Shown here one piece after another: positions 2,686 to 18,206 of a stretch of 64,000 bases of DNA; position 1 is the stretch's first letter, and each line of letters begins with the position of its first letter. Location: the NCBI GenBank assembly GCA_002835545.1, contig PIZK01000001.1, positions 1 to 64,000 of the forward strand, read 5' to 3'. Made by a program: the position numbers and the translations under genes. Origin of the DNA: Alteromonadales bacterium alter-6D02. Lineage in GTDB: Bacteria > Pseudomonadota > Gammaproteobacteria > Enterobacterales > Psychrobiaceae. Under the pieces are notes generated by a model. That model was not told the DNA's origin. It ran no database searches and saw only the letters and a list, made by a program, of their open reading frames with translations.

Positions 2686-4185
2686 ATGATAAAAAGACTA
2701 ATTACGTGTGTATTCGCGTTGATGCCGTATGCGGTATTGGCTGATTCTGACAACCTAATTGTAGCTAAGCACCCAACAGCAAAAACGGTTGCTAGTACGC
2801 AATACGCTTATGTGCCCATGGAAGTGTTAATGGATAGTAAAGGGTCGCAATTTAAAACCCTGGCTGGGCAATACAAATCTTATGTGCAGGAGTTAAGTAA
2901 TCAATCGGCACTAAGCTACTCACACTATATTGAAGATCTGGCCACTCAGTTAAAAACACAGGGTTTTACGATTGCTGCTCAGTGTATTACTAACTGTAGC
3001 ACTAAACCGTATAGTAAAAAAATCGCTAACAGCTTTCGTTATAACAACATTTATCAAGTGAACTATACTAATGCGAGAAAAAATAGTTTTGGCTATCTGG
3101 CGGCGACTAAAGGGGTTGATGGTCAGCAACAAGCAATTCAGGTCTTTGCTCAAAATGGTCATCGTAATACACTAAAATTTGCGTATGAGCAGATTGTTGA
3201 AACGCCCATGCCTGATAGTGGTGTGGTGGTGAAAAATGATTTTGCCGTGAAGCCGCTTGATTTCTCTAGTCTTAAGGCACCAAAACGTGATGTTAAAGGC
3301 GCTTCTGATCATCCAATGATTGAACGCTTCCCGGGCAGTTATATTGCTGCAACAGCGGTTAATGATTTTGAGTCCTATCCGTTAATTATCGGCCAATATA
3401 AAAAGTCGATTCCGACTAAACAAGTCAGCGGTAAGATCACCACGGTGAATTATCGTATTGACGCAAAGGTTGGTCCATATGCGGTTCACAAAAATTATAT
3501 TAACGCCTTACAACAAGCCGGGTTTACTATTATTTTTGAGTGTAGTGCGCCAACCTGTGGTAACTATATTTTGCGTGATAACTTAAAAAATACGATTCAT
3601 GCTAAAAACCATAAATCCGATATCTACAATATGAATCGCAAACGTCATTATTATCTGTTCAGTGCTGAAAAAGTGACTCCTGCTGGTAAGGTTTATGCGA
3701 CCATGTATAGCTATCAAAACAGTGGTAAATACGCTGTAGAAATGGTTGTCGATGTCATTGAAGAACGGGCGGTGAGCAAGGTCGCGCTGAATATTGATAG
3801 CGATACGCTTGGCAAGCAAATTCAAGCCACAGGGAGTGTTTCATTATATGGTATTGAGTTTGATTTTGATAAACACACTTTGAAGGCAAGCTCGAATAAA
3901 CAGCTCGCTGAAATTGCAGATTTTTTGAAAAAATCGAATAAAGTATCACTCTATGTCGTTGGGCACACAGATAATAAAGGCCAGTTTGAATATAATCAGA
4001 ATTTATCAAAACGCCGTGCCGCCGAGGTAGTGAACACCTTAGTGTCACAATATCAGATTGATAGTAAGCGTTTAGCTGCTGTAGGGGTTGGTCCTGTCGC
4101 ACCGAAAGCGGCGAACGATACTGAATCAAATAGACAGCAGAATCGGCGTGTGGAGTTGGTGTTAAAGTCACCATTATCACTATAG
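2686..4185 (+). CDS. OmpA-family outer-membrane/peptidoglycan-associated protein with DUF4892-like N-terminus
   Basis: A 499-aa exported protein with a signal peptide ending near residue 19 (AVLA-DSD). The N-terminal two thirds resemble DUF4892-type proteins, including a DHPMIERFPGSYI motif near residue 209. The C-terminal 110 residues form an OmpA-like peptidoglycan-binding domain: an IEFDFDKHTLK strand, VVGHTDNKG, LSKRRAAEV and NRQQNRRVEL. Such proteins are periplasmic or outer-membrane-anchored and bind diaminopimelate in peptidoglycan. ATG at 2686 has AAGGAAAG upstream. It is not clearly in an operon; the MAPEG gene follows after 41 bp with its own ribosome-binding site. Confidence 0.85.
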   Translation: MIKRLITCVFALMPYAVLADSDNLIVAKHPTAKTVASTQYAYVPMEVLMDSKGSQFKTLAGQYKSYVQELSNQSALSYSHYIEDLATQLKTQGFTIAAQCITNCSTKPYSKKIANSFRYNNIYQVNYTNARKNSFGYLAATKGVDGQQQAIQVFAQNGHRNTLKFAYEQIVETPMPDSGVVVKNDFAVKPLDFSSLKAPKRDVKGASDHPMIERFPGSYIAATAVNDFESYPLIIGQYKKSIPTKQVSGKITTVNYRIDAKVGPYAVHKNYINALQQAGFTIIFECSAPTCGNYILRDNLKNTIHAKNHKSDIYNMNRKRHYYLFSAEKVTPAGKVYATMYSYQNSGKYAVEMVVDVIEERAVSKVALNIDSDTLGKQIQATGSVSLYGIEFDFDKHTLKASSNKQLAEIADFLKKSNKVSLYVVGHTDNKGQFEYNQNLSKRRAAEVVNTLVSQYQIDSKRLAAVGVGPVAPKAANDTESNRQQNRRVELVLKSPLSL

Positions 4186-4226
4186 TGTCTGGTGCTGTTG
4201 TTACAAACTAAACGAGAGGAAAGACA

Positions 4227-4619
4227 ATGATCACTTTAATTTGGTGCTTGGTTATTGCTGCGTTATTACCGTTTATTGCTAAGGTCCCACTGGCTATAGC
4301 GATGAACAAAGCGGGTGGTTATGATAATAATCACCCTCGAGAACAACAGGCCAATTTACAGGGCTTTGGTGCGCGTGCTTTGGCTGCTCATCAAAATGCA
4401 TTTGAGTCGCTCATTATTTTTTCAATAGCGATATTGTTGGCGTTGGCGACCAATACTATTACTGATACAGTGCAATTGCTGGCGATGATTCATATTGGTT
4501 TTAGGGTGGCATACAATGCACTTTATTTATTAAATATAGGTGTGTTGCGTTCAATTTCATGGACTGTGGCCATTGGTTGTTCATTTGCCATTATGTGGCA
4601 ATGTATTGCGAATGTATGA
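4227..4619 (+). CDS. MAPEG family membrane protein
   Basis: A 130-aa inner-membrane protein with about four hydrophobic segments (near residues 1-22, 57-74, 78-97 and 108-126). The RALAAHQNAFESL segment after the first loop is the hallmark of the MAPEG family (membrane-associated proteins in eicosanoid and glutathione metabolism). Bacterial members are trimeric, and a few have glutathione transferase or peroxidase activity; the role here is unknown. ATG at 4227 has GAGAGGAAAG upstream. A weak inverted repeat near 4662-4702 could terminate the transcript. Confidence 0.88.
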   Translation: MITLIWCLVIAALLPFIAKVPLAIAMNKAGGYDNNHPREQQANLQGFGARALAAHQNAFESLIIFSIAILLALATNTITDTVQLLAMIHIGFRVAYNALYLLNIGVLRSISWTVAIGCSFAIMWQCIANV

Positions 4620-10637: not shown

Positions 10638-10661
10638 AACTGTCTCACTATTGCAACAGCT
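10638..10661. promoter_or_regulatory. Upstream activator site 1 (AACTGT-N12-ACAGCT)
   Basis: A 24-bp dyad, AACTGT at 10638-10643 and ACAGCT at 10656-10661 (5 of 6 bases symmetric). It shares its half-site and spacing with the perfect dyad at 10671-10694, centre-to-centre 33 bp (about three helical turns). Position and geometry fit an enhancer for the NtrC-type regulator encoded at 15470-16855. Confidence 0.6.
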
Positions 10662-10670
10662 GAATAAATT

Positions 10671-10694
10671 AACTGTGTCGATAATGAGACAGTT
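10671..10694. promoter_or_regulatory. Upstream activator site 2 (AACTGT-N12-ACAGTT)
   Basis: Perfect 6+6 dyad AACTGT/ACAGTT with a 12-nt spacer in which GTC..GAG extends the symmetry. It lies about 80 bp upstream of the sigma-54 -12/-24 element. AACTGTCTCA of site 1 and TGAGACAGTT of this site also form a 10-bp perfect inverted repeat with each other. Confidence 0.65.
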
Positions 10695-10762
10695 GCAATC
10701 GCTTTTATCAGCTTGTTAACTTTAAACTCTTTAAAATCAACGGTATAATGTGTTTCTTGTAT

Positions 10763-10778
10763 TGGCACAGTCCTTGTA
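10763..10778 (+). promoter_or_regulatory. Sigma-54 (-24/-12) promoter of the efflux operon
   Basis: TGGCACAGTCCTTGTA matches the sigma-54 consensus TGGCAC-N5-TTGCW at all but one base (GT instead of GC at -12). The GG-N10-GT spacing is correct. It lies 39 bp before the adaptor gene, and the operon is followed by a sigma-54 activator gene, so this is the probable regulated promoter. Confidence 0.75.
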
Positions 10779-10816
10779 TTTATTGGTTTATCAATAATTG
10801 TAAGTGATAGCGCATA

Positions 10817-12073
10817 ATGGACATACAACGTAAGGTAACGCCGAAAAAACCGTGGCAGAAATATTGGTATATTTTGCCGCTTTCTTTGTTAATCGCCGCG
10901 GGCTGGTTTTTTAAATCGATGGTTGGTGATGCTTCGTATCTTGCCGATAAACATAAACTGGTGACTGCTACTGTTGAGCGAGGTAGTTTTAAGGTCAATG
11001 TGCGTGGGACCGGCGTATTAAAGCCATTACATATTCGGTGGGAAGCGGCACAAGTGTCTGGTCGCGTTGAGCAGGTATTGATTAAACCAGGCAGTGTGGT
11101 TAAGGAGGGTGATGTATTAGTAACGCTTTCAAATCCACAGCTCCACCGTGAGTTAACCACCGCAAAATGGGAGCTTGCAGCGAATAAAGCGGAAAGCCAC
11201 GCCGCTTATGTGTTATTAGAGTCACAGCTCGTTGATTTAGACAATTTAGTGCTTGGGGCTAAATTTAGCTATGACTCGGCCAAATTAAAATTAGACGCAG
11301 AAACCCGCTTGATGAAACAAGGTAATGCCACAGTGTCTGCCTTGGACTATCAAAAAAGCCAATTAGCGGTAAAACAACAACAACAGTTTTGGCAGGCCCA
11401 ACAACAAAAAGCGCAAAAAATGCGTGAAAATTTGGTCGCAACAAAAGCGGCGCAGCAGGCACGAACGGGGCTTGTCGACAATAACTATCAGCGAATGAAA
11501 GACCAAGTTGCCGCTTTACAAGTACGTGCGTTGACCGCCGGAGTGGTGCAACAAGTGTCAGTAACATCAGGAGAGCAAGCTCAGATTGGCCAGAGTGTAG
11601 CGCTAATTGCGAATCAGCAGCAACTGTTTGCTGAATTGCAAGTGCAGGCTGTACGTGCCCGCGATATTCAAATTGGTCAGCATGTAGCAATTGATACGCG
11701 CAATAGCGTAATGAGTGGTCGAGTGAGCCGTATTGACCCGGCGGTTAATGCTGACATGGTGATGGTTGATGTTGAACTAACCAGTGAGCTCGCGAATGAA
11801 GCTAGGCCTGAATTGACTGTCGATGGCTTGATCACCATTAATCATATTGAAGATACGCTATATGTTAAACGTCCGGTTTTTGCACCGAAAAACAGTCAAG
11901 TATCGCTATACAAGTTGAGCAAAGACCGAGGATTTGCAGATAAGTCCGCGGTGACCTTAGGCATTAGTTCTGTTAATAAAATTCAAGTCGTGTCCGGTTT
12001 GTTTGTCGGTGATGAAATTATCATTTCTGACACCAGCGATTGGCAGCAACATCAGCAAATTATGATCAATTAA
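10817..12073 (+). CDS. Efflux transporter periplasmic adaptor (HlyD/MacA-like)
   Basis: A 418-aa membrane-fusion protein: an N-terminal transmembrane anchor (about residues 15-32), a lipoyl/barrel half around 50-95 (ending SGRVEQVLIKPGSVVKEGDVLVTL), a long alpha-hairpin about 100-235 rich in Gln/Ala, and the second lipoyl half with ALTAGVVQQVSVTSGEQAQIG. It links an inner-membrane ABC transporter to an outer-membrane channel. It is the first gene of the adaptor-ATPase-permease set behind the sigma-54 promoter. The ribosome-binding site is weak. The outer-membrane partner is not encoded here. Confidence 0.88.
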   Translation: MDIQRKVTPKKPWQKYWYILPLSLLIAAGWFFKSMVGDASYLADKHKLVTATVERGSFKVNVRGTGVLKPLHIRWEAAQVSGRVEQVLIKPGSVVKEGDVLVTLSNPQLHRELTTAKWELAANKAESHAAYVLLESQLVDLDNLVLGAKFSYDSAKLKLDAETRLMKQGNATVSALDYQKSQLAVKQQQQFWQAQQQKAQKMRENLVATKAAQQARTGLVDNNYQRMKDQVAALQVRALTAGVVQQVSVTSGEQAQIGQSVALIANQQQLFAELQVQAVRARDIQIGQHVAIDTRNSVMSGRVSRIDPAVNADMVMVDVELTSELANEARPELTVDGLITINHIEDTLYVKRPVFAPKNSQVSLYKLSKDRGFADKSAVTLGISSVNKIQVVSGLFVGDEIIISDTSDWQQHQQIMIN

Positions 12074-12163
12074 TCTAATCAATGTAATGACCTCGCCGTC
12101 TAATGCCTCTGTGTGTGATGATGCCACTTGAGCGTGTTCGGCGACAATAAAAATGGAAGAACA

Positions 12164-12895
12164 ATGAGCGCATTAATCAATTTAACCAATATTAGTAAAG
12201 CTTTTCTAACCGAAGAAATTGAAACCAGAGCCTTAAACGGCATTAATTTAACCATCGAGCAAGGTGAATATGTCTCTCTAAGTGGGCAGTCTGGTTGTGG
12301 TAAATCAACCTTGTTATCACTATTAGGCTTATTAGATGCTCCCACTCAAGGGCAATATATGCTGGCAGGAAGTGATGTATCGCAGCTGAGTCGTGATCAA
12401 CGAGCGACTATTCGTAGTGAGAAGATTGGTTTTGTATTTCAGTCGTTTAATTTAATTTCTGACTTATCGGTTTTTGAAAACGTGATGCTACCATTAACGT
12501 ATCAATCAGGCTTAAACAAAGCCGAGATTACTAAGCGGGTTGACGTGGTATTAGAAAAAGTCGAGATGAGCCACCGTAAAAACCACTTCCCGTCACAGCT
12601 GTCAGGCGGACAGCAACAGCGTGTTGCTGTGGCTCGTGCATTGGTTAATGACCCAGCGATTATTCTTGCCGATGAACCTACGGGTAATTTGGACTCAAAA
12701 AATGCTCAAGCGGTGTTAGCCCTATTTGATAAATTGCATCAAGAAGGCGCAACTATTTGTATGGTGACCCATGATCCTGCCTCAGCAAAACGAGCGAGTC
12801 GCTGCCTGGAAATGTTTGATGGCTGTTTAATTAAAGATCAACGAAACGTCAATAATACTGCTCCTAGCCATAAAGCAGAGTTAGCCGCTAGTTAA
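12164..12895 (+). CDS. ABC transporter ATP-binding protein (MacB/LolD type)
   Basis: A 243-aa ATPase. Walker A is [10 protein letters not shown], the signature is LSGGQQQR, and Walker B is [13 protein letters not shown], with the following H-loop in VTHD. It powers the FtsX-type permease encoded next. I start at ATG 12164 ([19 protein letters not shown] upstream); the frame extends to 12128 but the extra residues are not homologous. In this family ATP hydrolysis drives mechanotransmission rather than transport through the permease itself. Confidence 0.92.
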
Positions 12896-12910: not shown

Positions 12911-15334
12911 ATGTCGATTTTGATAGATATACAGTACGCGCTACGTTTATTGTTTAAAGCGCCTAAATTTACCCTGCTGACTTTAGGGGTGCTCGTGGGC
13001 GGACTGTCGATCAGTTTGTTTACTTTTTCGTTTTTATATTCATCCATTTATAAAGACTTGCCACTCCCTGAGGGGGAAAGTGTGTTAGCGGTGACCGTAT
13101 TTAACAATGGTGATCAGCGGCCACTAATGTCTAATGAGTATTTAGCGATACAGTCAGAGTTGTCCGATTTTTCAGAGTTTGGTGTTTATGATGACACTGA
13201 CTTTCGCTATTCCATAGAACAATCGGGTAAGAATATTGAAGGGAGTTATGTACGCGCGGGATTTTTTGAATTTAGTCGTACCCAGCCCATTATGGGACGC
13301 GTGGTACAAGCTTCAGATACCGAAACCGGGGCAAGTGCTGTTGCAGTTATTAGCTATCAGATGTGGCAAAATGAATTGGCGGCAGATCCTGAGGTTGTTG
13401 GTCGTCAAATTATTATTAATAATCAGGCAACCACTGTGATTGGTGTGATGCCTGAGGCTTATTACTTTCCGAACTTCTCTAAAATTTGGTTACCGTTACT
13501 AGATGACAAACTCATTGATAACGTTAAGTTTGCCATGAGTTTAAAAGCGTATGCGCGCTTGAAGGAAGGAGTGAGCATTGAACAAGCACAAGCGGCATTG
13601 GGTAATCGACTTAACCAGATTTACCAGCACACTATTAAAGCGAGCTCTCGTGATGATGTGACCGTGACATCTAAGCTCTTAACCTTCCAAATGGCGCAAA
13701 CCGGCGGGGAAGGAACCATGGCTTTTATATTCCTCAATACGGTTGTCTGGCTCATTTTATTGCTGGCATGTATTAACGTTGGTAATTTATTACTGGCCCG
13801 TGCCATCGAGCGTCAGAAAGAGACCGCGATTCGCGCAGCGTTAGGTGCAAAGACGTCGCGATTAGTTAGCCAATTAATGTGGGAAGGGGTAATCATTTCA
13901 ACACTGGGTGGCCTGTTATCAGTATTATTGGTTGGCGCTGCACTTGATTACACCGAATTAGTTTTACAGGGCTGGATCCCAAGCGGAGGTTCATTTTGGT
14001 GGCACTATGGCATGGACACTGAGACCTTATTGATGGCGGTTGTTTTCACTGTAATGACTATTTTCTTGTCATCATTCTTGCCTGCATGGCGAAGTGCAAA
14101 GCAAGATATCAATATGACTTTACGTGACGGTACGCGCGGCGCTCAAAGTAAACAGGCGGGGAAACTATCTCGTATCTTAGTAACGACTCAGGTCTTCTTA
14201 GTCGCATTATTAATGCTGATAGGCTCAATTTCAGGCTTTATTGCTCATAAGTTCATTAATATCGATATGGGTGATGACTTTACCGATGTCATGGTCGCCC
14301 GTTGGCAGATCCCTGAACATAAGTATGAGCAATCGCAACAACAAGTTGCGCTAATGCAATCGTTGAGCGATCGGATTAGTCAACACTCGCAGGTGGCTGA
14401 TGTGATGAGCAATAACTGGCTGAGCACCGAAAAGGTGGCCATTGAGGGGGTTGAGTATGAAACTGGGACAGATTTACCAAGTGTTGATGTCCTCAGTTTG
14501 GTCGGTAACCCTGAAACAATCGGCGTAAAGTTGGTAGCGGGGCGTGTATTTTCTAATGTAGATAGCGAAGGTAACCAGCATACAGCTATTATTAGTCAGT
14601 CAATGGCCAAGCGGTTTTGGCCTGCCCAGTCACCGCTAGATAAGTTTATTAAGCTGACCGTCAATGAGCAAGAACAACGACTGCGTATTGTCGGGGTTGT
14701 TAGCAACAGAATGAACCCAAGTACATTGTTTGGCCGTTTAGATAGTGGCGATGAAGTGTATGTTTCAGGCTATCAATTTCCTACTATTTATCAAACGTTA
14801 CATTATCGTTTAGCATCGAATACCGCCCATGGTGAAGAAATTTTTTATCAGGCGATGTTTAAAACTGATCAGAATATTAAACTCACCTATTCTGTAGCAC
14901 CTGCGAAGTACAACCGCAACAAAATGCGGGAATCAATGCAACTGATGTCAAATATTACTTTTGGCACCGGATTCTTTGCATTAATGTTAGCGCTTGTCGG
15001 GATCTATGGTTTAACGGCCAATACGGTGGCGCAGCGCACACACGAAGTGGGCATTAGGCGAGCTGTGGGAGCAACCGATCGACAAATTATCGAGATGTTT
15101 TTACGCCAAGGGGCCAAACAACTTATCATCGGTATTGGCTCGGCATTAGCGGTGTTTGTTATGTTAGCTTACGGTTTTCATAGCCTGACTGAAGGGTTGT
15201 TCCCAATGACATTTTACTTTGTATTAGCGGGTGGCGTAACTTTGGGTCTAGCGTTTGTAGTGATGATTGCCATTTTAATTCCAACCAAACGTGCTGTGAT
15301 TATGGAACCGAGCATTGCACTCCGTTATGAATAA
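12911..15334 (+). CDS. FtsX-family ABC transporter permease (MacB-like)
   Basis: An 807-aa permease with two tandem MacB-periplasmic-core/FtsX units. There is an N-terminal membrane helix (about 20-43), a periplasmic core, three helices around 275-390 (including LLLACINVGNLLLARAIERQKETAIRAALGA), a second helix near 425, another periplasmic domain, and a C-terminal FtsX bundle with THEVGIRRAVGAT. It starts 15 bp after the ATPase gene. With the upstream adaptor it forms a MacAB-like pump or a peptide/antibiotic-resistance exporter; the substrate is unknown. Confidence 0.9.
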   Translation: MSILIDIQYALRLLFKAPKFTLLTLGVLVGGLSISLFTFSFLYSSIYKDLPLPEGESVLAVTVFNNGDQRPLMSNEYLAIQSELSDFSEFGVYDDTDFRYSIEQSGKNIEGSYVRAGFFEFSRTQPIMGRVVQASDTETGASAVAVISYQMWQNELAADPEVVGRQIIINNQATTVIGVMPEAYYFPNFSKIWLPLLDDKLIDNVKFAMSLKAYARLKEGVSIEQAQAALGNRLNQIYQHTIKASSRDDVTVTSKLLTFQMAQTGGEGTMAFIFLNTVVWLILLLACINVGNLLLARAIERQKETAIRAALGAKTSRLVSQLMWEGVIISTLGGLLSVLLVGAALDYTELVLQGWIPSGGSFWWHYGMDTETLLMAVVFTVMTIFLSSFLPAWRSAKQDINMTLRDGTRGAQSKQAGKLSRILVTTQVFLVALLMLIGSISGFIAHKFINIDMGDDFTDVMVARWQIPEHKYEQSQQQVALMQSLSDRISQHSQVADVMSNNWLSTEKVAIEGVEYETGTDLPSVDVLSLVGNPETIGVKLVAGRVFSNVDSEGNQHTAIISQSMAKRFWPAQSPLDKFIKLTVNEQEQRLRIVGVVSNRMNPSTLFGRLDSGDEVYVSGYQFPTIYQTLHYRLASNTAHGEEIFYQAMFKTDQNIKLTYSVAPAKYNRNKMRESMQLMSNITFGTGFFALMLALVGIYGLTANTVAQRTHEVGIRRAVGATDRQIIEMFLRQGAKQLIIGIGSALAVFVMLAYGFHSLTEGLFPMTFYFVLAGGVTLGLAFVVMIAILIPTKRAVIMEPSIALRYE

Positions 15335-15371: not shown

Positions 15372-15412
15372 AATAGCGCATAAAATGAATCGCTTATGCG
15401 CTATTATTGTTT
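15372..15412 (+). terminator. Rho-independent terminator after the efflux genes
   Basis: AATAGCGCATAA (15372-15383) pairs perfectly with TTATGCGCTATT (15394-15405) over a 10-nt loop, followed by ATTGTTTTCT. It separates the transporter genes from the regulator pair, so the latter may have its own promoter or depend on read-through. Confidence 0.7.
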
Positions 15413-15469: not shown

Positions 15470-16855
15470 GTGTTTTTGCAGCAGAAAAAAATTTTAGTCG
15501 CGGATGATGATATTAATATCCTTGCAAGCTTACAGTATGTATTAAGCGAAGAAGGTTTTGATATTACGGCTGTTACCACACCTGAAGCCGCTATTGATAA
15601 TGTGAAGCAACAAAACTTTGACTTAGTATTACTTGATATGAATTTCGTCCAAGACACAACGTCTGGGCGGGAAGGGTTAGCACTCGTTAAAGATATCACG
15701 GCACTGGAGTTGTCTTTGCCTATCATCGTCATGACCGGCTGGGCAACCGTCGATATTGCCGTTGAAGCAATGCAAGCTGGGGCAAGAGATTTTATCCAAA
15801 AGCCTTGGCATAACGAACGTTTGATTAGTGCTATTGCTTTACAAATCGATTTAGCGACGTCAGCGAAGAAAAACCAGCGTTTAGTACAGCAAAATAAATT
15901 ATTAACATCACAAGTGTTACCGTCAAAGCGGGATGGAGTTATTGCCAACTCCCCCGTCATGCAACAACTGTTAGCCTCCCTTGATGAGTTAGCGCAAAGT
16001 GATATGAGCATTTTACTCACCGGTGATAATGGCACAGGAAAGAGCATGCTCGCTGCTTATGTTCATAGTGTCTCAAAGCGAGCCGATAATGCGTTTGTAG
16101 CGGTGAATATGGGAGCTATACCTGAGTCTTTATTTGAAAGTGAAATGTTTGGTCATCGCAAAGGGGCGTTTACTGACGCTAAAGAAAATCGCATTGGCCG
16201 ATTTGAAATGGCAGAACAAGGGACTCTGTTTTTAGATGAACTAGCCAATATTCCACTAGCTCAGCAGGCGAAGTTACTTAGAGTGCTGGAAGAGAAACAA
16301 TTTGAAGTGGTGGGGGCTAGTAAGTCTATTGATGCTGACGTTCGGGTTATTTCTGCTACAAATTGTGACTTATTGACGGCGATAGCGGACAAAGAGTTTA
16401 GACAAGACCTATATTATCGCTTAAATACGATTGAGTTAAGAGTACCTTCACTCAATGAGCGTAAGGAGGACATCGTGCCATTAGCACAATATTTCTTACA
16501 GAGCTTTAGTAATAAATATCACCGTACCTGTCCCGCACTGTCACGTTCAGCTGCTCAGAGTTTGGAGCAACACTCATGGCCGGGTAATATTCGTGAACTC
16601 AGCCATTTAATGGAGCGCGTGCTTTTTACCTGTAAAAGCGGTGTTATTGAATCATCTGATTTGATGTTGGCCCCCGTCGTTGAGCTTCATAGAGATTCGT
16701 TAGACTCTCCAGAGTTGACACTGGATGAAATTGAAAAGCAGGCTTTAATTAATCGCCTTAAACAATGCCAAGGTAATGCGACAGAAACCGCTAAATCTCT
16801 GGGGCTTAGCCGTAGTGGTTATTATCGCCGATTAAGTAAATATGGTTTGGATTAA
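15470..16855 (+). CDS. Sigma-54-dependent response regulator (NtrC family)
   Basis: A 461-aa transcription activator with three domains. A receiver domain (1-120) has phospho-acceptor D56 in VLLDMNF. An AAA+ domain (about 145-380) has Walker A GDNGTGKS and Walker B TLFLDELAN; the sigma-54 contact loop is GAFTDA (232-237) instead of the usual GAFTGA. A C-terminal Fis-type helix-turn-helix (about 418-461) ends it. The start is GTG 15470 just after GGGAG; TTG 15476 has better spacing and is a close alternative. Its overlap with the kinase gene and the sigma-54 promoter upstream of the exporter suggest that it controls the exporter. Confidence 0.92.
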   Translation: MFLQQKKILVADDDINILASLQYVLSEEGFDITAVTTPEAAIDNVKQQNFDLVLLDMNFVQDTTSGREGLALVKDITALELSLPIIVMTGWATVDIAVEAMQAGARDFIQKPWHNERLISAIALQIDLATSAKKNQRLVQQNKLLTSQVLPSKRDGVIANSPVMQQLLASLDELAQSDMSILLTGDNGTGKSMLAAYVHSVSKRADNAFVAVNMGAIPESLFESEMFGHRKGAFTDAKENRIGRFEMAEQGTLFLDELANIPLAQQAKLLRVLEEKQFEVVGASKSIDADVRVISATNCDLLTAIADKEFRQDLYYRLNTIELRVPSLNERKEDIVPLAQYFLQSFSNKYHRTCPALSRSAAQSLEQHSWPGNIRELSHLMERVLFTCKSGVIESSDLMLAPVVELHRDSLDSPELTLDEIEKQALINRLKQCQGNATETAKSLGLSRSGYYRRLSKYGLD

Positions 16856-18206
16856 AGTCGTGTTTGGACTTTTAAACGCTATCACTCACAAAGTAAACGA
16901 AATAGATATCCAACTAAAACTGATTTTGTTGGTATGTGTTCCTTGTTTTACGTTGACCGCTTTTTCGTTGTTTTTTTCTGGCGTTTCAGGTTATTTGATT
17001 GCATTTATACTGATTTTACTCACTTTACTGTGTAGTTATGTTGCTATTACCAGTAAATACCATGCTGAACATCAAATACGAACCTTTTCTAATTTAATCG
17101 AGTCGATGATTGATGGTGATTATTCATTGCGTGGGCATGCACAAAATAATCAGGCATTACAAGAGCTACTGACTTTGATTAATGAGCTTGCCGATCATTT
17201 AGCTGCGCATAAGGTTGAAGCAAAAGAGTCACGTTTGCTGCTTGAACGGATCATGCAGCAAATGGATGCAATGGTGTTAGCGACTGATGAGCAGGGCGTT
17301 GTTGTAATGACGAACACCTCGGCACATACGATTCTTTTTCCTCAGTTAGACAGTCTGGACGGGGTTAAGCTAGATGACACGTCATTGGGGCTGGAAATTG
17401 TGTCAGCACCTGCGGGAGTCATTTCATTTAACCAACCCGAGTTATCTGGTGAGTATTTTTTATTTAAAGATGATTTCCTAAGTTCAGGTAACAAACACCA
17501 CCTATACATGCTAACAAATGCTGAGCGCTTATTGATGGAAAAAGAGCGTCAAGCATGGCAAAGCTTGTTGCGGGTTTTAAGTCATGAAATGAACAATTCA
17601 TTAGCGCCAATCATTGCCATTAGCCAATCAATGAAAAAGAAGCTTGATCAAGTGGATACCGAGCTTAAAGCTGAGTCTTTACTTACTGGGGTTGGGATCA
17701 TTAATGAACGCGCCGCATCATTGTCTGGTTTTATCGGCAGTTATAGTCAGCTATCTCATTTGCCCGAACCTAATTTCTCGAGCTTTGGCTTAGCCAATGT
17801 TATTGAGCGATTAGCTCTGTTGTTTCCTGAGGCTGAATTAAAACATAACATTGACGTTGAATTAATCATTGAAGCGGATAAAGGCCAATTTGAGCAAGTG
17901 ATTATTAACTTATTTAAAAATGCAGCGGAGGCGATGCATGGACAAGCGCAGCCATTAATTATTGTCGATACCGAGTCTAGAGCCAATTGGCTACATATCA
18001 ATATTAAAGATACGGGAGTTGGCTTGGCTAATTTAGATAATATTTTTGTACCGTTTTTCACTACGAAGGCTCAAGGGAGTGGTATTGGGTTAGCGTTGTG
18101 CCGACAAATTATGTTTAATCATAATGGCATGATTAAACTTAGTAACAGAGCGGGGAAGGGGGTAGTGGCTACTTTATCACTGCCTATAGCTGCATCAACA
18201 TCATAA
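16842..18206 (+). CDS. Sensor histidine kinase, partner of the NtrC-type regulator
   Basis: A 454-aa membrane kinase. Two adjacent transmembrane helices (about residues 25-70) leave almost no periplasmic loop, so it probably senses the membrane or interior. Then come a HAMP-like linker, a PAS-like segment (about 135-215), a dimerisation helix with H248 in RVLSHEMNNSLAP, and the HATPase with N-box NLFKNAAEA and G-boxes DTGVGL and GSGIGLAL. Its start overlaps the regulator's stop by 14 bp, indicating translational coupling. Its NtrY-like layout fits other exporter-linked systems. Confidence 0.9.
   Translation: MVWIKVVFGLLNAITHKVNEIDIQLKLILLVCVPCFTLTAFSLFFSGVSGYLIAFILILLTLLCSYVAITSKYHAEHQIRTFSNLIESMIDGDYSLRGHAQNNQALQELLTLINELADHLAAHKVEAKESRLLLERIMQQMDAMVLATDEQGVVVMTNTSAHTILFPQLDSLDGVKLDDTSLGLEIVSAPAGVISFNQPELSGEYFLFKDDFLSSGNKHHLYMLTNAERLLMEKERQAWQSLLRVLSHEMNNSLAPIIAISQSMKKKLDQVDTELKAESLLTGVGIINERAASLSGFIGSYSQLSHLPEPNFSSFGLANVIERLALLFPEAELKHNIDVELIIEADKGQFEQVIINLFKNAAEAMHGQAQPLIIVDTESRANWLHINIKDTGVGLANLDNIFVPFFTTKAQGSGIGLALCRQIMFNHNGMIKLSNRAGKGVVATLSLPIAASTS

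Follow-up and report, generated by a model that had tools for sequence, protein, structure and literature searches.

Gene content of the operon and its upstream region

The window analysed here, the first 64,000 nucleotides of contig PIZK01000001.1 of Alteromonadales bacterium alter-6D02, carries on its forward strand an ABC exporter operon that ends in the genes of a two-component system. The first gene (10817-12073) encodes a periplasmic adaptor of HlyD/RND_mfp type, with which the orthologs carrying the gene align from residue 1 in 22 of 22 cases. It is followed by an ABC ATPase, for which the closest NCBIfam model is DarD and then LolD; the reading frame as listed begins at 12128, while orthologs mostly align from its residues 10-13, and hence the ATG at 12164 is the probable start of a gene extending to 12895. 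The third gene (12911-15334) codes for an ADOP-type double permease containing two stretches each of MacB_PCD and FtsX. Next to its end lies a stem-loop (15372-15405, plus strand) with perfect arms of 12 bp and a loop of 10 nt, beyond which follow an NtrC-type response regulator (15470-16855), composed of a REC domain, an AAA+ domain with a GAFTDA loop and a Fis-type HTH, and a sensor kinase (16842-18206) having a membrane hairpin at about residues 23-45 and 50-70, a predicted PAS domain, an H-box of the form HEMNN and a HATPase domain. The original prediction that the operon encodes an NtrC-type regulator together with its kinase is thus borne out by domains, motifs and the gene order of orthologs.

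Upstream of the adaptor lies a candidate sigma-54 promoter, TGGCAC-N5-TTGTA (TGGCACAGTCCTTGTA, 10763-10778, plus strand), 38 nt before the ATG at 10817; by the -24/-12 spacing alone, transcription would be predicted to start at 10789 on the same strand. The consensus of sigma-54 promoters is TGGCAC-N5-TTGCW, with GG at -24 and GC at -12 in fixed spacing. The window promoter agrees with it at 9 of 10 positions, including the GG and the spacing, and has T in place of C in the -12 element. Further upstream there are two dyads, AACTGTCTCACTATTGCAACAGCT at 10638-10661 and AACTGTGTCGATAATGAGACAGTT at 10671-10694, separated by 33 bp. Their cores constitute the distal (10641-10658, TGTCTCACTATTGCAACA) and the proximal (10674-10691, TGTGTCGATAATGAGACA) candidate regulator sites, without assigned strand. 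All the elements that had been predicted, promoter as well as dyads, are therefore present with the sequences and at the positions proposed, and the genome also possesses rpoN (C6:75225-76703).

Single motifs are no more frequent than in controls

Taken one by one, these motifs occur about as often as expected. Within the window, the dyad pattern gives 4 matches with up to two mismatches against 3.85 expected from shuffles, and the promoter pattern gives 3 matches with up to one mismatch against 3.1. A genome scan for AACTGT-N12-ACAGTT had been suggested as a check; over the 3.99-Mb genome, with up to one mismatch, it returns 13 places compared with 11 for the reversed control, and we have consequently dropped this pattern as a genome-wide tool. 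Searching for the refined core described below (4 places with up to one mismatch, 4 for the control) or for TGGCAYN5TTGTW on both strands (17 versus 18) leads to equivalent results. The other exact dyad match in the genome, at C2:168690, has within 400 bp just one promoter-like site (8/10), which is on the minus strand and has the dyad downstream of it. The refined core TGTSTCRNNNNYGASACA has two exact matches in its own genome, one being the proximal site and the other C4:23974, which we have rejected as an operator because its position falls within a long ORF.

Conservation of the arrangement in orthologous operons

A regulator-based scan of genome contigs retrieved 37 loci, 23 of which (L011-L033) belong to related marine bacteria and encode closely similar regulators (69-75% identity); their records bear the names Colwellia, Thalassotalea, Litorilituus, Alteromonadaceae and, in one case, Pseudoalteromonas. 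Gene order is the same for all five genes at 22 of the 23 loci, and the remaining one (L020) is cut by its contig. All 22 orthologs for which upstream DNA is present have the promoter and the dyad pair, a figure that does not amount to 22 independent events, since the orthologs share kinship. In each there is a TGGYWY-N5-TTG site, the -12 element of which reads TTGTA in 19 cases, TTGCT in one and TTGCG in two; the GT rather than GC at -12, common to the window and these 19 orthologs, is a point against the circuit. Both regulator sites have counterparts in the same upstream regions (22/22 for the distal one), and the two dyads are 33 bp apart in 19 orthologs and 32 bp apart in the other three. 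The distance from promoter to gene start is 51-60 nt in 21 of 22, with the exception of L024, in which an insertion of approximately 310 bp has moved the gene away and left the promoter and both dyads intact. This insertion spans about 4060-4400 of its locus and has ends that, judged by eye, resemble inverted repeats.

Apart from these elements the upstream DNA of the orthologs is largely diverged, while position, spacing and core are kept. Over the full length of the 23 loci (428,939 bases), and with thresholds that were chosen after these sites were known, no second dyad pair was detected; in four loci the known pair was merely matched again in a register shifted by two bases. A combined pattern of dyad, gap and promoter, which fits the common variant only, so that genomes without a match may still possess the module, was found in 3 of the 394 genomes sampled from the order: its own, G148, which has the same sequence as L024, and G095, in which the match falls within an ORF that we take to be recN and is considered a chance occurrence. 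Extending the search to the family of G148 produced matches in 11 of 246 genomes, one apiece and all before an adaptor gene, the product of which is 59.9-68.9% identical to the window adaptor. The pattern precedes the adaptor by 142-148 bp in 10 of these 11 cases and by 457 bp in the L024 sequence. Ten of the stretches are identical in sequence to members of the ortholog set (L011, L012, L016, L021, L024, L025, L027, L028, L030 and L033), and only L163 is new.

An alignment of the distal and proximal sites of the window and 22 orthologs (23 of each) leads us to revise the binding sequence. AACTGT-N12-ACAGTT had been proposed, yet the outer AAC is retained at just 2 of the distal and 4 of the proximal sites, the GTT at 0 and 2, respectively. 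TGT and the AC at +15/+16 are invariant in both sets (100%), and C at +5 (100% distal, 91% proximal) and G at +12 (91% distal, 100% proximal) follow; distal sites frequently finish with ACT instead of ACA (A in 57%). The conserved core, and hence the predicted working consensus of the operator, is TGTSTCR-N4-YGASACA, the AAC/GTT flanks being unconserved. In contrast to the single-genome counts, the arrangement and its conservation exceed chance, and we consider for this reason that the elements of the circuit are real: the sequence comparison establishes the predicted promoter, the two sites, their spacing and their attachment to the operon, along with the intact motifs of regulator and kinase. 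The initial proposals of a sigma-54 promoter and of two tandem upstream dyads thereby gain the support of all the orthologs having this region.

The regulator and its sensor kinase

The response regulator has REC, sigma-54 AAA+ and Fis-type HTH domains above the Pfam cut-offs, and its receiver aspartate, Walker A and B motifs and GAFT(D)A loop are intact. Its sigma-54 contact loop reads GAFTDA and not GAFTGA, a second point against the circuit. Most of the related modules that we aligned have GAFTDA or GAYTDA, with GAFTGA or GAYTGA in the groups of the C32 type (see below). The regulator scores 321.8 bits with the GlrR model NF011695, below its cut-off of 763, and regulator and kinase likewise remain under the cut-offs for PrsR/PrsK of the PEP-CTERM system (TIGR02915 and TIGR02916: 379.8 and 67.8 bits versus 502.6 and 300).

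In each of the 24 orthologous kinases (that of the window and 23 others), the N-terminus contains two and only two hydrophobic segments, with 4-11 residues between them; the scan with a window of 19 residues separated the two in 7 of the 24, merging neighboring windows in the others. Across kinases of all module types, 28 of 29 have two segments spaced by 4-14 residues, and L178 has one above threshold. A third and weaker stretch (score 1.5-1.9, around residues 106-161) appears in 12 of the 29 kinases and is, we take it, the core of the PAS domain; as a membrane helix it would instead leave a loop of some 60 residues in these 12 proteins. For the kinase of the window, AlphaFold predicts (mean pLDDT 75.7, pTM 0.48) a helix at 23-45, a loop of four residues (46-49), a helix at 50-91, a PAS-like fold at 143-226, the DHp and the catalytic domain. 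Over the 24 orthologous kinases the mean majority fraction is 0.76 for the second membrane helix and 0.85 for the stretch after it, with SxYLIAFIxI nearly invariant, compared with 0.69 for the PAS, 0.61 for the first membrane helix and 0.67 for the catalytic domain. Matches to PAS models are weak, below cut-off, in the window kinase and in four related kinases scanned. Control kinases for the topology were few, a motif search giving 5 matches in 19 loci: L035, located beside ABC ATPases, has two segments, L038 none and L039 four, whereas L099 and L068, which represent the same kinase, have no segments. On the strength of the predicted topology and of the model, it is very probable that the kinase lacks a periplasmic domain for sensing a ligand.

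The exporter and its substrate

The exporter had been described as MacAB-like, a designation that needs to be amended. Its ATPase is a separate protein closest to DarD and LolD, and the MacB model (NF007826), which describes a single protein with a cut-off of 966, gives 231.7 bits with the ATPase and 77.6 with the permease. The permease instead matches the ADOP model TIGR03434 over positions 2-803 of 803, with 521.1 bits and thus below the cut-off of 622.3. The models for DarBCD, the darobactin exporter (NF038008, NF038010 and NF038007), return 32.8, 42.1 and 265.1 bits, below the respective cut-offs of 700, 450 and 375. By these profile matches we classify the system as a split ABC exporter of ADOP/DarBCD-like type, not as MacAB proper.

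What could such an exporter transport? On a Rahnella plasmid, a five-gene homologue has around it genes with annotations for 3-oxoacyl-ACP synthases, a cytochrome P450 and a phosphopantetheinyl transferase, and another on a Xenorhabdus plasmid adjoins a phosphopantetheinyl transferase gene. Because these homologues sit by biosynthesis-like genes, the substrate is likely to be peptide-like or some other secondary metabolite, even if no precursor or biosynthesis gene was recognised directly beside the module in the window. The Rahnella aquatilis module corresponds to L100 (1-19386), near which a phosphopantetheine-containing protein is also annotated.

The stem-loop between permease and regulator has equivalents in most orthologs: in the gaps of at least 74 nt (window plus 21 orthologs), 16 of 22 contain a perfect stem that was reached by no more than 2 of 60 shuffles, and six lack such a stem; the gap of L026 is just 15 nt long. 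Stem sequences differ among groups, with some close relatives sharing them, and most have no strong T run, on account of which we read the element as a partial terminator or a processing/stability element that may lower regulator and kinase relative to the exporter. Its location implies that the operon may be expressed unevenly and, as a further point against the circuit, that regulator and kinase might have a promoter of their own.

Related modules in the same genome and in other bacteria

The genome contains three further modules of this kind, here designated C31, C15 and C32, with regulators 43-49% identical to that of the window. In C31 the gene order is regulator-kinase-adaptor-ATPase-permease, in C15 the exporter genes are divergent from those of regulator and kinase, and in C32 the permease is encoded by two separate genes. 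At the adaptor of each module lies a sigma-54-like site (8 or 9 of 10 positions), with dyads upstream that form a predicted operator of its own: TGTCCATAAACGGACA in C15, GTAGTTCGATATCGGACTAC in C31 (GTCCGATATCGGAC in its relatives) and TGTCC/GGACA repeats in C32. C18 was considered as a fifth module and rejected, its regulator match being short (residues 7-125 of a 251-residue frame) and its adaptor lacking a sigma-54 site. The nearest relatives among genus-mates, L165 and L166, have TCCCA-N4-TGGGA-like sites, again spaced by 33 bp, and the copies of Rahnella, Pseudoalteromonas and Pseudomonadales have TCCCR-N4-YGGGA-like sites, spaced by 23 bp in Pseudoalteromonas and 24 bp in Pseudomonadales (all spacings counted by hand). 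By eye, a central C-R-N4-Y-G is common to most module groups while the flanks differ; C32 and its relatives do not fit. The recognition helix of the regulators is formed by LG followed by L/I/M, S/T, R/K, three varying residues and YR. These varying residues, in combination with the differing dyads, may underlie operator specificity.

Kinases of this type (E <= 9.1e-29) are present in six of the eight genus-mates scanned, with 1-6 per genome and nearly all beside exporter genes (L165-L184); at the same threshold none was found in G004 and G008. Twenty of the 21 matches outside the own genome were fetched, leaving out G003:C132, which is partial (97-433) and has two stops. Exporter genes occur in 19 of the 20 stretches, the exception L178 lying near a contig end, and the regulator in 17, being missing in L166, L171 and L176. 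A promoter-like site at the adaptor was found in 18 of 21 modules, several of them with other gene orders; the zone searched extended from -200 to +150 relative to mechanical ORF starts, and by our own arithmetic from the site density a score of 8/10 or more is expected there by chance in about 10% of cases. The 21 modules are those of the window, the three paralogs and 17 of the 20 fetched stretches (L178, L179 and L184 being left out). The score is 9 or 10 in 13 of the 18, and in the same zone L181, L182 and L183 have no promoter. Among five modules from elsewhere (L100, L101, L102, L104 and L034), a site of at least 8/10 precedes the adaptor in four, with none in the adaptor zone of L104. 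The 14 more distant regulators (L034-L047) are accompanied by adaptor, ATPase and permease only at L034, with two ATPase matches at L035 and one, at 35%, at L041; hence membership of the regulator superfamily does not always go along with an exporter.

The best kinase match in the eight genus-mates is 38%, versus 53-63% in the Colwellia/Thalassotalea group. In three genus-mates, 19-kb stretches beside a ycaO-like gene (L193, L194 and L195), which cover mainly one side of that gene, contain no match for adaptor, permease, regulator or kinase, and two of the three have an ATPase at 42-46%. On the other side of the ycaO-like gene, at a distance of about 10-13 kb, G006 and G007 carry a module of the C32 type. 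The comparison suggests that the window module may have been acquired by lateral transfer, with loss in the relatives as the alternative.

A model for the circuit and its alternatives

We propose that a dedicated, self-amplifying sigma-54 circuit controls the exporter operon, a reading that the sequence evidence renders highly probable. The kinase would phosphorylate the NtrC-type regulator, which would then bind the two 18-bp sites, located on the same face of the DNA about 105 and 140 bp before the transcription start, and its AAA+ ring would open the RpoN polymerase at 10763-10778, so that the exporter is made; read-through past the stem-loop would subsequently produce more regulator and kinase. 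We infer that the regulator binds the dyads, that phosphorylation activates it and that regulator and kinase are transcribed from this promoter. The self-contained circuit of the original prediction is in line with the comparison of orthologs and with the presence of rpoN; very probably it is real and mostly of a known kind, with its operator now corrected. As to the input, the apparent lack of a periplasmic sensor suggests, with lower confidence, that the kinase takes its signal from either the membrane or the exporter itself, if not through the predicted cytosolic PAS.

That promoter and dyads are chance look-alikes would agree with the frequencies of the single motifs, which are about those of shuffled or reversed controls, but position, spacing and core have been conserved in 22 of 22 orthologs even though the surrounding DNA has largely diverged, and we regard this explanation as practically negligible. 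Improbable, if by a lesser degree, is that the dyads bind another factor, a repressor or an unrelated activator, while the regulator of the operon acts elsewhere. The own genome does offer candidates, with 14 matches spanning the sigma-54 AAA+ domain, the window regulator among them, and the regulator has been paired with the dyads from sequence alone. On the other hand, the dyads are paired and at a typical enhancer distance; within the 23 loci the pair is confined to the position before this operon, and all 11 matches in the family of G148 likewise precede it. Moreover, related regulators go with related but different dyads, most groups of which share by eye the central C-R-N4-Y-G, and have a conserved recognition helix with varying residues inside it.

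More serious is the alternative concerning the signal. Kinases that combine a membrane anchor with a PAS domain are common, and with the same cis circuit the predicted PAS of the kinase could detect a ligand in the cytosol, in which case the exporter would have no part in sensing. The PAS-like fold of the AlphaFold model and the PAS matches below cut-off in the window kinase and its four relatives agree with this possibility, which we consider a real one, if short of probable. Against it, the PAS is less conserved than the second helix and the stretch after it, with the near-invariant SxYLIAFIxI; the argument is a weak one, because the first helix and the catalytic domain are less conserved still. 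A further reading, which we raise for discussion by analogy with the Bce systems considered below, is that the modules constitute a sigma-54 counterpart of these systems in Gram-negative bacteria, in which the exporter would sense and pass its transport state to the kinase, and private operators would keep the modules separate. We offer it tentatively, as a possible and on balance doubtful interpretation.

In a wider perspective, a site that can be defined from conservation, and not from one sequence, opens the way to computational pairing of regulators and targets for exporters with unassigned substrates. Several related yet distinct operators within one genome also represent a natural test of the insulation of paralogous NtrC-type circuits.

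Comparison with known systems

One of the known systems closest to this circuit is that of GlrR (QseF/YfhA), whose sites at glmY and glmZ are described as TGTC-N10-GACA dyads with sigma-54 promoters in the passages of the reports considered here (PMC4987338; PMC8745638). The two have in common the 18-bp geometry, a dyad before a sigma-54 promoter and an NtrC-type regulator; they differ in the target, which is a small RNA for GlrR and an exporter here, and in the core, which here has fixed inner bases too. With DarBCD/ADOP and MacAB-TolC, type VII ABC exporters, the system shares the adaptor, the LolD-like ATPase and the MacB_PCD-FtsX permease, while it lies below the curated cut-offs and has an unfused ATPase, unlike MacB.

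A link between sigma-54 and this class of permeases is already in print: predicted sigma-54 promoters are enriched before COG0577 ABC antimicrobial-peptide permeases in Gammaproteobacteria, Bacteroidia and Opitutia, and the paper claims, in the portion available to us, the first evidence for such a link (PMC12316311). The cognate regulator sites and the anatomy of the kinase, which are given here, are absent from its passages that we consulted. Among the matches listed from the open-licence literature, no title or abstract beginning described an ADOP exporter linked to a sensor-less kinase in a sigma-54/NtrC circuit. Relative to these sources, what appears to be novel is the set of module copies with private operators and a sensor-less kinase.

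Bce-type regulators are OmpR-type, and in this respect the BceAB-BceRS systems of Gram-positive bacteria are distinct from the modules presented here, which have an NtrC-type regulator and sigma-54, besides an ADOP-type permease with a periplasmic adaptor. What they have in common is the genetic association of a two-helix kinase that lacks a sensor domain with an exporter from one wide superfamily. BceS is a known example of this kinase anatomy in the parts of the literature considered (PMC5985334; structure paper PMC10314905); the window kinase, too, is predicted to have two membrane helices with almost no extracytoplasmic loop. BceS is reported, in the same limited material, to respond only with BceB and active BceA (PMC5985334), and it is by analogy that the exporter is proposed here to pass the signal to the kinase. 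If the exporter does act as the sensor, sensing through transport activity would also be a feature of sigma-54 control in Gram-negative bacteria.
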